Shown: positions 28,164-43,514 of the stretch, in pieces
Layout of the letters: the number at the start of each line of letters is the position of its first letter
Position numbering within the stretch: position 1 is the first letter of the stretch
From: Roseovarius carneus
GTDB lineage: Bacteria; Pseudomonadota; Alphaproteobacteria; Rhodobacterales; Rhodobacteraceae
Direction: 5' to 3'
Length of the DNA: 64,000 bases
Assembly (NCBI RefSeq): GCF_020141465.1
Contig: NZ_JAHSPD010000001.1
Location: forward strand, 186,001-250,000
Notes under the pieces: model-generated
Seen by the model: the letters and a program-made list of their open reading frames with translations, nothing else
Told to the model about the DNA's origin: nothing
Databases searched by the model: none
Program-made: the position numbers and the translations under genes

Positions 28164-28985
28164 ATGTCAGACGGCAAGATGCAGGTGATCGGCCTCGTGC
28201 GATTCTCCTACCCCGCCTTGGGCGGCTTTCAGATCGAGCACGAAAGCCCCGAGGCGCGCGCGGCCTTCCTTTACGACCCAGTGCGAATGGAAGAACGCTT
28301 TACCACCTTCGCGGGCCTCACATTGCCCCCTTTACGCGCACAGACCGACCCGGACTTCACCCTCGCCATCGTCGTGGGTGACACGATGCCCGAGCCACTG
28401 CTGGAACGCCTGTTTGACCTGGTGGAGGACATGCCGCAGGCGGTGATTATCCCCCGCGCGCCGGGCCGCCACCGCCAAGTGATGCGCGAGGCGATCAACC
28501 ATGTGCGCGATGATACCTCTCCCCTGCCCTCGCTCCAGTTTCGGATGGATGATGACGATGCCGTTTCCGTCCGCTTTGTCGAACGGCTGCGCCATCACGC
28601 CACCTCACTGCGCCCGTTTCTCGCGCAAAACCGTTATGTGGGCCTTGATTTCAACCAAGGCCATATCGCACGGATCACCCCGAAGGGCATCCGCGCAAAA
28701 CCCACGGTCGAGACCCTTTGGACCCCGGGCCTCGGCATGGCCGTGGCGCCCGGTGCCTCGCGCGGGATCATGAATTTCAGCCACGCAAAACTTGGCCGCG
28801 TGATGCCCGTTGTGACCCTGCCGGACCCCGATATGTTCATTCGCGGCCATAACGACTTCAACGACAGCCGCCAGAAAGACGGTGTGAAGCCCGTCCGCCT
28901 GCCCCCCCTTGATGTAGAGGGCCAGGCCCATTTCATGCAGCATTTCAACATCAGCGCAGATGCCATCCGCGCGCTTTACCGTTAA
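28164..28985 (+). CDS. Putative rhamnosyltransferase family protein, copy 1
   Basis: A 273-aa protein resembling the Pfam 'putative rhamnosyl transferase' family, abundant in Rhodobacteraceae. It starts with [15 protein letters not shown], followed by [16 protein letters not shown], which looks like the nucleotide-sugar fold entry. The acidic DDDDAV at about residue 131 is a likely metal-binding DxD-type site. There is no signal peptide or membrane helix, so it should act in the cytoplasm on a glycan or lipid acceptor. ATG at 28164 or 28179 could be used. Its partner at 29004 follows after 18 bp and is clearly paralogous. Acceptor and true sugar donor are unknown; the family name is not proof of rhamnose. 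Confidence 0.75.
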
Positions 28986-29003
28986 CCCCGAAGGAGCCCC
29001 CCC

Positions 29004-29828
29004 ATGCGCGTCATCGGCATCTGCCGCTTCTCCTACCCAGCACTTGGCGGGTTCAAACGGATGCACGACACGGTGGCGGAGCGTGAGGCCTATCTTTACG
29101 CGCCTGCCCGCATGGCCTTGCGCTTTGCGCATTTTGAAGCGCTGACCCTGCCCTCCATCGCCGCACAAACGGACCCCGACTTCACCTTTCTGGTGATCAT
29201 CGGGCAAAATATGCCCAAGCCGTTTCTGGACCGTCTCCATGATATCTGCGCCCCCATCCCACAGATCAAAATCGTCGAATGGGAACCGATGAAACACCGC
29301 CTCGCCCTGCAACTGGCCATTCAGGCCGAGCTGGGAGACCCCGCGCCAGAATCACTGCAATTCCGGCTCGATGATGATGATGCGGTGGGGGTGGATTTCA
29401 TCCAACAGATCCGCCTCATTGCGCGGCGGTCCGAGCGTCTGCGCCGCCGCGAGCCGCGCATGGTGATCGAATTCAACACTGGCTACTCCGCCACGCTGAC
29501 CAAAGACGGCATTTTGTGCGAGGAGGTGATCAGCGCCTTCTGGGCCTGCGGCCTCGCGGTCTATTTTGCCGCCGGGGACAGACGCACGATCATGAATTAC
29601 GGCCACCACAAGCTACACCACGAAATGCCCGCCCTCGTGACCCCGCGCCCGCCGATGTATATCCGCGCCAAACATACAGATAACGACAGCGCGGCCAAGT
29701 TCGTGCCAAAAGGTCTCGCGCCCATGAATGACGATCAGCGGCGCGTCTTCAAACACCGCTTCAACGTCGAGGAGGACGCCGTGAAAGCGCTATTCGCCGC
29801 CCTAGACGCGCCTCGCGGTAAAGGGTAA
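29004..29828 (+). CDS. Putative rhamnosyltransferase family protein, copy 2
   Basis: A 274-aa paralogue of the gene just upstream. It shares [14 protein letters not shown] at the N-terminus, [31 protein letters not shown] and a similar length. The middle and C-terminal parts differ more, which suggests a different acceptor or linkage and not a recent copy. GAAGGAG 11 bases before the ATG at 29004 is a good ribosome site. The 3' end overlaps the convergent EamA gene by 68 bp, an unusually long coding overlap that both reading frames appear to tolerate. Probably one operon with copy 1. Confidence 0.75.
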   Translation: MRVIGICRFSYPALGGFKRMHDTVAEREAYLYAPARMALRFAHFEALTLPSIAAQTDPDFTFLVIIGQNMPKPFLDRLHDICAPIPQIKIVEWEPMKHRLALQLAIQAELGDPAPESLQFRLDDDDAVGVDFIQQIRLIARRSERLRRREPRMVIEFNTGYSATLTKDGILCEEVISAFWACGLAVYFAAGDRRTIMNYGHHKLHHEMPALVTPRPPMYIRAKHTDNDSAAKFVPKGLAPMNDDQRRVFKHRFNVEEDAVKALFAALDAPRGKG

Positions 29829-39716: not shown

Positions 39717-40013
39717 GTGTATAAACACCTTTCAATTTCTCACCGGTCGCACGCACTGTTGGGCACCAGCCGCGCGGCCATTTGAGACAGCGGGTTCCGG
39801 GTCAATTCATGGCCTCTGTCCCACCAGAAGCCTCCCGATCCGGAACCTCGCCTGAGAGAAACCCGGCCCGCAAATCGTGCAGGGCCTCTCTGAGACAGGT
39901 TCGGCTGGGGGCGGATGACCCGTCCCCAGCCTGCGTTTACATAGTGCGTCCGGCGCTTTTACAAACACCGGGCTGTTTTCCAAAGGATGGAAAACGCGCA
40001 GATCGCACCGCTC
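39717..40013 (-). promoter_or_regulatory. rplL-rpoB intergenic region with hairpins
   Basis: The 297-bp gap inside the rplJL-rpoBC unit holds a strong stem, GGCTGGGG/CCCCAGCC at 39903-39931, and a smaller one, TTTTCC/GGAAAA around 39974-39992. In E. coli this interval contains an attenuator and an RNase III site that set polymerase synthesis below L7/L12. The size and stems here suit the same purpose, but the match is by position only. No ORF is supported. Confidence 0.5.
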
Positions 40014-40466: not shown

Positions 40467-40985
40467 TTATGCCGCTTCGGCCTTCTCTTCGATGGTCGAA
40501 AGGATGCTCGCGATGTTCGAAGCAGGTGCGCCAATTGCACCGGCAATGTTCGAAGCAGGTGCGCCGAGACAACCCACGATGGAAGCAATAAGCTCCTCGC
40601 GCGAAGGCATTTTCGACACAGCTTCGACACCAGCCCGGTCCAGAGCGCTCTCACCCATTGCCCCGCCAAGGATCTCATATTTTTTGTTAACCTTGGCGAA
40701 ATCCTCGGACACTTTGGCGGCTGCCACAGGGTCTTCAGAATAGGTCAGAACGGTCATGCCCGTGAGGTATTCAGCGATGCTTGCACATGGCTTGCCCTCA
40801 AGAGCAATCTTAGCGAGCCTGTTTTTGGCAACACGAACCGAGGCATCGGCCGCACGTGCGCGCGCCCGAAGATCCTGCATTTCCGCAACTGTAATCCCGG
40901 CATAGTGGGCAACCACTACGACGCCAGAGCTTTCGAAGATTTGGCCGAGTTCGTCGACCAATTTCTCTTTCTGGGCTCTATCCAC
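40467..40985 (-). CDS. rplJ: 50S ribosomal protein L10
   Basis: L10 anchors the L7/L12 dimers and binds its own mRNA leader. With a GTG start at 40985 the product is 172 aa, starting M(V)[24 protein letters not shown] site lies about 8 bases upstream. The open frame reaches 41039, but that extension overlaps the leader hairpin and is not L10-like. The C-terminal stalk-binding helix contains a near-exact 11-residue repeat, [11 protein letters not shown] then [11 protein letters not shown], encoded by a 33-bp DNA repeat (40512-40532 and 40545-40565). Unlike the usual order, rplA does not lie directly upstream. Confidence 0.97.
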
Positions 40986-41165
40986 AGTTTCACTCCAAAT
41001 TTCGGGGGAGAATTCCCCCAGCTCGATGACACCGGGCAAGGTGCCCGGCTTTTAGTCCTGTAAACGGGGCTATATCAAAGCATCCAAAGCATGCGCTCCG
41101 GCTGATCTCGTCAACTCCCGCCTCGGGCAGGGAATTAAGGGTTTGCACCCACCCACCGTCTTGGA
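40986..41165 (-). promoter_or_regulatory. Probable L10 autoregulatory mRNA leader
   Basis: The stretch before rplJ is structured and non-coding. It includes the perfect stem CCGGGCA/TGCCCGG at 41032-41049 just ahead of the ribosome site. Upstream lie GC-rich segments (CCCGCCTCGGGCAGGG at about 41115-41131) and a GGGTTTGCACCCACCC element at 41140-41155. L10 leaders elsewhere combine such a distal stem with a kink-turn that binds L10(L12)4. A small hairpin with a CGAA loop, ATGAGA/TCTCAT, lies further up at 41183-41198. The call rests on position and general shape, not on a covariance match. Confidence 0.55.
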
Positions 41166-41270
41166 CGAAACGCGAAAGAGGCATGAGACGAATCTCATAC
41201 CACCTGCGCTGCGTAGCCTCTAGAGGGTTTATCCCGCGATGCCAAGCCCTCGTGCGAAATTGAGTATTGG

Positions 41271-41714
41271 TCAGGCAGCCGTCGCCGCCCCGATCGCGCC
41301 AGGTGGGGAAACACCGGCAGCGAGGACCAGCTTTTTGATCTCGGTTGTGGATATATTTTCCGTGCGCGGCAGATAGACCACCCGGCAGAGATCCGACAGG
41401 TCATCGAATTTGCCCGTCCAATCGCTGCCCATGGCAAAAATATCAGCACTGAACCTCTGCACGTCGCCGCGCTTTTGGTCCCACCTCTCCTCCGGAAAAA
41501 CCTCGTCAACATAGCGGCACGCGGCGAGGATTTCGGCACGCGCCTCGAATGGCATGATGCAAGTCTTGCCCTTGGTCGCGTTAAACGCATCAGTGGAACA
41601 GCCTACAATCAAGCGGTTACCAAGCTTGGCCAGACGCGCAAGCAGACGCACATGGCCAGAGTGAAACAGATCAAAGGTACCATAGGTTAAAACAGTTGCG
41701 CGCTTGCGTCTCAT
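41271..41714 (-). CDS. Glycerol-3-phosphate cytidylyltransferase-like protein (TagD type)
   Basis: A 147-aa nucleotidyltransferase matching TagD, which makes CDP-glycerol from CTP and glycerol 3-phosphate. It has TYGTFDLFHSGHVRLLARL with the HxGH site (HSGH), then VGCSTDAFNATKGK, YVDEVFPEERWDQKRGDV, MGSDWTGKFD and the C-terminal LPRTENISTTEIKK with the ISTT motif. This is a near-complete set of family motifs. The ATG at 41714 follows the licD-like stop by 2 bp. The pair is read in the same direction as the ribosomal genes but sits between the rplA terminator and the rplJ leader. CDP-glycerol is the likely product; a related CDP-polyol is possible. Confidence 0.85.
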   Translation of the reverse strand: MRRKRATVLTYGTFDLFHSGHVRLLARLAKLGNRLIVGCSTDAFNATKGKTCIMPFEARAEILAACRYVDEVFPEERWDQKRGDVQRFSADIFAMGSDWTGKFDDLSDLCRVVYLPRTENISTTEIKKLVLAAGVSPPGAIGAATAA

Positions 41715-41716
41715 GC

Positions 41717-42658
41717 TCAAATCTCCGCCATGCCGGATGCGCGCAAAAAGCGGGCAAACTGGCGTTTCTTCTGCTTCCAGGGGAAATGGAAATAAGGGTT
41801 CGGATCGCGCCAGTCATGGCCGTAATTCACCGCCAGCATCTTCTCGGGCGCAGCCGGGATGGGCAGGTTCGAATGTGGGCAGAGGGCCAAGGGAAACACA
41901 TCTTCAACGCTCAGCTCACCATAGGTGTGCGGATACACATAAACGCGACCCTGATAGGTCCACGCCGGGAACACGTCAACGGACACACCGGCCCCGGTCT
42001 TAAGCTGCACCTGCGCCATCGGCTTTGCATCACTCAGATCAAGCAAACCCGCCTCCTGCATCTGCATCCGCAAGACACGCCACATGCGCCCAGCCTCACG
42101 CTCTGTGCGCGCGTTGAGCATGATCGCCAGATCCACGTCATCATCGTGATCAATCAGCTTACCGTCGCGCACCACTCCCAAAAGGGTGCCCGAATTGAGA
42201 AATACCTCTCCCCCCAATGCATCCAGCGCCCGAACTGCGGCAATCACTTCGTCCCAGACAAGGCTGTGGTCGCGCGCATCAAACGTGTCGGGCAGGAAAT
42301 CATGACCCAGAAGCGTCTGCGCCCCAGCGGCACGTTTGAGACGCGCTTCAAACGCGTCAAACATCTCCCGCTCACCGGCGGCAATGCGCAGCTTTCGCAA
42401 GGAGTTCATGAAAATGCGCGTGCGAGCAGGGCGGATACGACCCACAAACTGAAGCATAATCCGCGCCTCAAGCTCGGTCAGACTGCGCGGCGTCTCGGCC
42501 AAGGCATCCAGTTGTTTCATATATTCAAACGGGCTGAAATCCGCGTCTGCGGACTCCAGTTGAGCCGCCGCAATCGCATGAATATCTGCCACCCTCGGCC
42601 CTGTGGGCCGAGTCTCAGATAGGACATCCTGCATTTTCACTGCCTCAAGATCTGTCAT
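41717..42658 (-). CDS. LicD-like phosphotransferase with nucleotidyltransferase fold
   Basis: A 313-aa protein. The C-terminal part (about residues 145-300) has the LicD/fukutin-type signature: FLNSGTLLGVVRDGKLIDHD, then DDVDLAIML, where the acidic DHDDDVD cluster would bind metal. It ends with a region like PIPAAPEKMLAVNYGHDWRDPNP (in parts PIPAAPEKML, NYGHDWRDP). LicD-type enzymes move phosphocholine, phosphoribitol or similar from CDP-alcohols onto glycans. The N-terminal 140 residues are helical and unassigned. There are no signal or membrane segments. The tagD-like gene follows after 2 bp, so a shared path from CDP-glycerol to a phosphoglycerol-type modification is a natural inference. 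The acceptor is unknown. Confidence 0.75.
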   Translation of the reverse strand: MTDLEAVKMQDVLSETRPTGPRVADIHAIAAAQLESADADFSPFEYMKQLDALAETPRSLTELEARIMLQFVGRIRPARTRIFMNSLRKLRIAAGEREMFDAFEARLKRAAGAQTLLGHDFLPDTFDARDHSLVWDEVIAAVRALDALGGEVFLNSGTLLGVVRDGKLIDHDDDVDLAIMLNARTEREAGRMWRVLRMQMQEAGLLDLSDAKPMAQVQLKTGAGVSVDVFPAWTYQGRVYVYPHTYGELSVEDVFPLALCPHSNLPIPAAPEKMLAVNYGHDWRDPNPYFHFPWKQKKRQFARFLRASGMAEI

Positions 42659-42752: not shown

Positions 42753-42786
42753 CAAAAAAGAAACAGGCCCCCCAAAGGGAGGCCTG
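42753..42786 (-). terminator. Rho-independent terminator after rplA
   Basis: CAGGCC...GGCCTG (42764-42786), with an inner CCC/GGG extension and an AAA loop, forms the stem. On the minus strand it runs into TTTCTTTTTT (complement of 42754-42763). It lies about 30 bp after the rplA stop. It separates the L11-L1 unit from the licD/tagD-like genes. Confidence 0.88.
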
Positions 42787-42815
42787 CTCAAATACCGCGA
42801 GGTTTTGGGTGCATC

Positions 42816-43514
42816 TTACTCGCTGACGGCCTCGCCAACGCTGATCGTGACGCCCGGACCCATCGTCGAGGTCAGCGAAATTCGCTTCATATAGGCCCCT
42901 TTGGACCCGGCAGGCTTGGCCTTGGCCACAGCCGTGATGAAGGCGCGCACATTCTCGACAAGCTGCGCTTCCCCGAAGGAGGCCTTGCCGACACCGGCGT
43001 GAACCACACCGGCCTTCTCGGCCTTGAACTGCACTTCGCCGCCCTTTGCCGCTTTCACTGCATCGGCCACATCCATGGTCACCGTGCCCACTTTGGGGTT
43101 CGGCATCAGGTTGCGTGGGCCAAGCACTTTGCCCAAACGGCCCACAACGGGCATCATGTCAGGCGTCGCGATGCAGCGATCAAAATCGATCTTGCCGCCT
43201 TGGACGATTTCCATCAGGTCCTCGGCCCCAACAATGTCCGCGCCAGCCGCTTCGGCTTCTTCAGCCTTCGCGCCACGGGCAAACACGGCGACGCGCATTG
43301 TCTTACCGGTACCGTGGGGTAGACCGATCACACCGCGGACCATCTGGTCTGCGTGGCGTGGATCGACGCCCAGATTGACAGCCACTTCGATAGTCTCGTC
43401 GAACTTCGCCTTGGCGTTGTTCTTGACCAGTGCCACAGCCTCTTCAACCGACAGATTGCTCTTGCCGTCGAATGCTTCACGCGCCGAACGCGCCCGTTTT
43501 CCAAGTTTTGCCAT
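42816..43514 (-). CDS. rplA: 50S ribosomal protein L1
   Basis: L1 forms the mobile L1 stalk and represses the L11-L1 operon by binding its mRNA. The 232-aa product starts [15 protein letters not shown] and contains [15 protein letters not shown] and [20 protein letters not shown], with the family signature [15 protein letters not shown]. It begins 1 bp after the rplK stop. A strong terminator follows, so this unit ends here and does not continue into rplJ. Confidence 0.98.

Follow-up and report, generated by a model that had tools for sequence, protein, structure and literature searches.

A LicD-like and TagD-like gene pair, probably acting in phosphoglycerol transfer, in a recurrent cargo slot between rplA and rplJ of Rhodobacteraceae

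Several Gram-negative bacteria are known to carry a glycerol-3-phosphate cytidylyltransferase gene next to a gene for a LicD-family transferase. In Actinobacillus pleuropneumoniae, Cps7C is a member of the LicD family that adds glycerol 3-phosphate (Gro3P) from Cps7B-made CDP-glycerol to a glycerol-phosphate terminus (PMC11666461). The same pair is known from Neisseria meningitidis, as CshA/CshB in serogroup H and CszA/CszB in serogroup Z (PMC3647402). These systems, together with A. pleuropneumoniae Cps3C, belong to group 2 capsule clusters that include PF04464 enzymes and employ Kdo-linked acceptors. Other LicD-family proteins, such as Mycoplasma fermentans mf1 and the LicD proteins of Haemophilus and pneumococcus, likewise move a phospho-alcohol from its CDP form onto a glycan or glycolipid, but with a choline donor. 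The NTase-type phosphotransferase fold is also found in fukutin and in FKRP, the latter being distinguished by its CDP-ribitol donor, dystroglycan substrate, separate N-terminal domain and zinc loop. Caulobacter CpgD, which participates in CDP-glycerate synthesis, was set aside as a comparison because the nucleotidyltransferase that it resembles is another one, IMPCT (PMC12275187).

Here we describe an adjacent licD-like and tagD-like gene pair of the same general type, for which a glycerol donor is predicted. Unlike the Cps, Csh and Csz pairs, it is an orphan located between ribosomal protein genes, and some of its relatives are fused into a single protein. Neither a PF04464 partner of Cps7B/Cps7C-type capsule priming (CpsA and polymerase) nor an adjoining ABC-transporter-dependent capsule cluster was found. 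Given these precedents, the chemistry of the enzyme pair is known and its setting is new. Among open-licence papers, we found no published rplA-rplJ insertion site and no LicD-TagD pair in roseobacters.

The gene pair and its ribosomal flanks

The window, a stretch of 64,000 nucleotides, is part of a 3.05 Mb alphaproteobacterial genome in which the licD-like and tagD-like genes are each present in single copy. The minus strand carries, in order, nusG, rplK, rplA, terminator, licD-like, tagD-like, promoter-like site, leader, rplJ, rplL, rpoB and rpoC (Table 1). The original prediction of a two-gene insertion holds, as both ORFs are present on this strand and are separated by only 2 bp (junction TGA-GC-ATG). 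It was also correct in placing a strong terminator behind rplA, and in assigning rplJ a leader of its own, which is kept across the family.

Table 1. Features of the rplA-rplJ region, in window coordinates
Feature	Position	Strand	Basis or remark
rplA (L1)	42816..43514	-	ORF; upstream border of the gap; 123 family genomes have homologues in order
Intrinsic terminator after rplA	42761..42789	-	13-pair hairpin, 8 GC, T-rich tail; z = -4.5 against shuffles
LicD-like phosphotransferase (putative), 313 aa	41717..42658	-	PF04991, AF2 model, Foldseek, FKRP profile alignment
TagD-like glycerol-3-phosphate cytidylyltransferase (predicted), 147 aa	41271..41714	-	TIGR01518, 1coz, motifs in alignment A3
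Promoter-like site 5' of rplJ (inferred), TTGGCA-17-TAGAGG	41217..41245	-	read from sequence
Conserved rplJ leader RNA	40983..41105	-	alignment A4 (35 genomes) spans 40983-41190
rplJ (L10), GTG start at 40982	40467..40982	-	ORF; downstream border of the gap

The promoter-like site was not reported by a sigma-70 scan. Compensatory changes occur at 12 of the 27 predicted pairs of the rplJ leader, and scans of the window and ten relatives yielded no Rfam 15 match. This RNA is probably an uncatalogued L10-type leader. A catalogued RNA, Rhodo-rpoB (RF03074, 77 bits), is matched at positions 39748-39841 of the minus strand, 5' of rpoB. Two tandem genes for PF11316 putative rhamnosyltransferases lie between rpsL and rpoC on the opposite strand (28164-29828, plus strand), and the ribosomal region perhaps has a second such slot for cargo here.

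The original prediction also held that rplA normally leads straight into rplJ, a view that did not survive a comparison of spacing within the family. In 124 family genomes rplA and rplJ lie on a single contig. The gap was measured in these, and the 123 genomes with the genes in order were kept. The gap is shorter than 450 bp in 61 of these, 450-900 bp in 6 and at least 900 bp in 56. Gaps shorter than 300 bp (n = 47) consist mostly of the rplJ leader, and only five of them carry terminator-like hits, which start 60-161 nt past rplA. By contrast, 58 of the 72 gaps of at least 300 bp include a strong terminator-like hairpin that starts no more than about 75 nt from the rplA stop codon. A strict promoter-like motif 5' of the leader was found in 11 of 71 long gaps (mean of 0.26 for shuffled long gaps) and in none of the 47 short ones. 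On the basis of this pattern, cargo sits where the ribosomal genes form two separate transcription units. Note that the split is also present without cargo in gaps of 300-560 bp. The window is of the split type.

The cargo of long gaps is varied, as judged by Pfam runs on representatives and by codon-usage scoring of genes in this GC-rich DNA, a rough procedure that can miss short genes or starts. It includes family 2 glycosyltransferases (PF13704; ten genomes, forming a single homology cluster), Hint-domain proteins (PF13403; seven genomes), RTX-type repeat proteins, histidine kinases, glycosyltransferase 61 and sulfotransferase. One genome (G052, L061 1001-1732) carries a DMSP lyase-like gene (PF16867) in the gap. 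The licD-tagD pair itself occupies the gap in 6 of the 124 family genomes, in a congener of the window genome (G226) and in 26 of 80 loci collected from GTDB with the LicD alignment as query. Elsewhere, the pair recurs next to a gene for a Bcr/CflA-like transporter and next to one for a nucleoside hydrolase-like protein, both read from sequence.

In the LicD tree, the closest relatives are from Pelagivirga sediminicola, the congener G226 and Roseovarius dicentrarchi, the last of which has a licD-like gene with an in-frame stop near the C-terminus (L145 6001-6867) that reflects either decay or a sequencing error. These neighbours in the tree make a Roseovarius-like roseobacter the likely source of the window. 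The tree demands eight changes of location; well-supported branches leave no way around at least three of them, and in one clade the genes are inverted. A single ancestral insertion into the gap is therefore unlikely. We also considered viral and plasmid sources. The LicD-like protein had no hit in IMG/VR, and phage records contained only TagD relatives of less than 60% identity, whereas a plasmid source is unsupported given that only partial LicD hits, about 30% identical, were recovered. A glycerol-3-phosphate cytidylyltransferase gene with no assigned function has been reported in the roseophage CRP-6 (PMC6918029), and this gene might relate to phosphoglycerol chemistry of the host.

Predicted activities of the two proteins

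By sequence, the TagD-like protein is a predicted glycerol-3-phosphate cytidylyltransferase. Its match to TIGR01518 covers the full domain and scores 152.8 bits, which is 12.6 bits below the equivalog cut-off of 165.4, and therefore we describe it as TagD-like and not as a certified equivalog. All sequences in alignment A3, which includes Bacillus subtilis TagD as a row, match this model. The TagD-like protein shares 54% identity with B. subtilis TagD, a member of the same family, and matches the TagD structure 1coz with 146 bits (E = 4.3e-42). The motifs HxGH and RTxxISTT (here RTENISTT) are retained, in agreement with the original prediction that family motifs are carried. In the alignment, HxGH (18-21), Lys48, Lys50, Arg59, Trp78, Asp98, Arg117-Thr118 and Ser122-Thr123 fall on their TagD counterparts, at positions that matter in TagD. 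The B. subtilis protein differs in its context, since the partner here is LicD-like and no TagB/TagF-type enzyme (PF04464) was found in the genome.

The LicD-like protein scores narrowly above the PF04991 cut-off (24.3 bits versus 22.6) in a match that spans a short stretch, and 50 of 51 aligned LicD-like sequences match this family at E ≤ 0.001. In its AF2 model (pLDDT 92), the N-terminal part is entirely helical and the C-terminal part forms an NTase domain. A Foldseek search with the model returned 13 PDB matches with E ≤ 0.001, and every one is FKRP. The TM-scores are low (0.35-0.38) because the match is confined to the catalytic domain. In a profile alignment, Asp172, Asp174, Asp176 and Asp228 correspond to FKRP Asp360, Asp362, Asp364 and Asp416, which have been named as catalytic (PMC6965139). 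The first three are invariant among the 51 sequences and Asp228 is at least 90% conserved. We classify the protein as a putative LicD/FKRP-type NTase on the basis of its modelled fold and these four residues.

The two genes are also strongly associated. In a set of 199 family genomes with a single representative per genus, a LicD-like gene is present in 10 and a close TagD-like gene (E ≤ 1e-25) in 12, with both present in 9 (Fisher p = 2e-12). A tagD gene is the immediate neighbour of licD in 49 of the 80 GTDB loci. Some LicD-like copies in this set are not adjacent to tagD, and several of these are second copies in genomes that carry a complete pair elsewhere (for example Rhodalgimonas, Thalassovita autumnalis and strain EhC02). 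Eight fused proteins were found, of which seven, including that of Shimia sp. R10_1 (L118), are LicD-TagD and one, from an Ascidiaceihabitans sp. (L151), is TagD-LicD. Fusions in both domain orders point to independent events that united the same two activities. The genome, which is 99.99% complete, yielded no match to PF04464 (TagF/TagB family), and thus the LicD-like protein is the sole evident user of CDP-glycerol.

Two further arrangements were observed. In Marimonas, the cytidylyltransferase domain of a fused LicD-TagD protein (L124 5959-7308, the same place as L039 9384-10733) is degenerate, with several TagD residues gone (42% identity, 71 bits), and a second pair in the same genome (L126) is intact. 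In Roseibacillus (Verrucomicrobiota), two more ORFs come after the pair, one of them a divergent second TagD-like ORF and the other LicD-like (L173 6834-8408).

Proposed function and alternative readings

We consider it likely that the pair is a CDP-glycerol-dependent module for phosphoglycerol transfer, with a surface glycan or glycolipid as acceptor, carried as accessory cargo in a permissive ribosomal gap. The TagD-like enzyme would convert CTP and sn-glycerol 3-phosphate to CDP-glycerol, from which the LicD-like NTase would move phosphoglycerol, or a short phosphoglycerol chain, to an acceptor hydroxyl. Transfer would take place on the cytoplasmic side, with the precursor of a cell-surface glycan or glycolipid as acceptor. 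The pair would reside between two ribosomal transcription units, with the terminator behind rplA on one side and a separate promoter and leader for rplJ on the other. Family membership, catalytic residues, co-occurrence, fusion and gap architecture were computed; we infer CDP-glycerol as the donor and the class of acceptor. The earlier proposal of a CDP-glycerol-dependent phosphoglycerol-type modification in a Gram-negative bacterium is well supported by family assignment, catalytic residues, co-occurrence, adjacency, fusions in two orders and the biochemical precedent of Cps7B/Cps7C (PMC11666461), with the donor specificity that it assumed still a prediction. It also named glpK/glpD as a possible source of glycerol 3-phosphate. 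GlpD and GlpK are indeed encoded in the window, but these serve ordinary glycerol catabolism and do not indicate a specific supply.

Our best guess regarding the acceptor comes from the surroundings of relatives. Outside Rhodobacterales, one relative (L166) adjoins glycosyltransferase-like genes and a Polysacc_synt gene of the flippase type, and others (L188-L191) lie amid sulfotransferase-like and polysaccharide pyruvyltransferase-like genes, as read from sequence. In another genome (G085, L048), the pair is located amid exopolysaccharide-type genes in an apparent cluster. These contexts suggest a surface glycan or glycolipid. However, most copies in Rhodobacterales lie outside glycan clusters, and therefore the acceptor class depends on distant relatives and on the described precedents.

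The LicD family includes users of CDP-choline and CDP-ethanolamine (mf1; PMC11982090), FKRP as a family member takes CDP-ribitol (PMC6965139), and the cytidylyltransferase falls under its TIGR01518 cut-off, all of which would accommodate a pair that attaches another phospho-alcohol, for example phosphocholine, phosphoethanolamine or a polyol phosphate of the C4-C5 class, via the matching CDP derivative. We nevertheless judge this distinctly unlikely, given that the score against TagD (146 bits) far exceeds those against ethanolamine-phosphate (65 bits) and choline-phosphate (37 bits) cytidylyltransferases, and given the retained TagD motifs. The mf1 model matches the LicD-like protein over a 28-residue stretch only, far under its cut-off, and the rplA-rplJ gap has no other candidate partner gene that could stand for the licA choline kinase or licC choline-phosphate cytidylyltransferase of the Lic-1 phosphorylcholine pathway. 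A special case of phosphoglycerol transfer, in which the LicD-like protein, like Cps7C, would polymerise glycerol phosphate and build a teichoic-acid-like chain or linker instead of a single decoration, is unlikely, although less so than a different phospho-alcohol. The two proteins share both family and general plan, with a helical N-terminal part followed by an NTase domain (PMC11666461), but the genome has no recognizable PF04464 priming or polymerase partner and no capsule genes adjoin the pair.

The original prediction attached meaning to expression close to ribosomal genes, and the location might be taken to indicate that the pair modifies part of the ribosome or of the translation machinery, or needs growth-rate-coupled expression from the ribosomal operon. 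The recurrence of the pair in this gap across many genera and the presence of all eight fused proteins there are in keeping with such a link. However, a terminator separates rplA from the pair, three licD-tagD copies in the gap are inverted relative to the ribosomal genes, unrelated cargo fills the gap across dozens of genera, roughly half of those in the family, and the pair is also present at other chromosomal sites. We therefore regard a functional tie to the position as highly improbable, and the claim of the original prediction is not upheld. We explain the ribosomal neighbourhood as a recurrent cargo slot and not as a functional link.

Returning to phosphoglycerol transfer by an accessory gene pair, a broader picture can be offered tentatively, although we are doubtful of it as a whole. 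Many Rhodobacteraceae might bear a so far undescribed surface decoration of phosphoglycerol, akin to teichoic acid, whose synthesis would fall to a CDP-glycerol synthase-transferase that stands alone and is sometimes a single polypeptide. The gene for this enzyme would be one item of changing and largely surface-related cargo that is exchanged into the rplA-rplJ gap via recombination between highly conserved ribosomal flanks, possibly through gene transfer agents.

What is known is the chemistry of the enzyme pair, and what is new is that the pair occurs as an orphan, in some relatives fused, within a cargo slot that is used repeatedly. The finding is a pointer to surface modification with phosphoglycerol in a group that is abundant in the sea, by an enzyme pair that is simple to assay and for which natural synthesis-transfer fusions exist in both domain orders. 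Moreover, the rplKA/rplJL border, widely treated as part of a fixed operon, has two architectures in this family and serves as a recurrent cargo slot, which makes the entry of accessory genes into the most conserved part of the genome testable.
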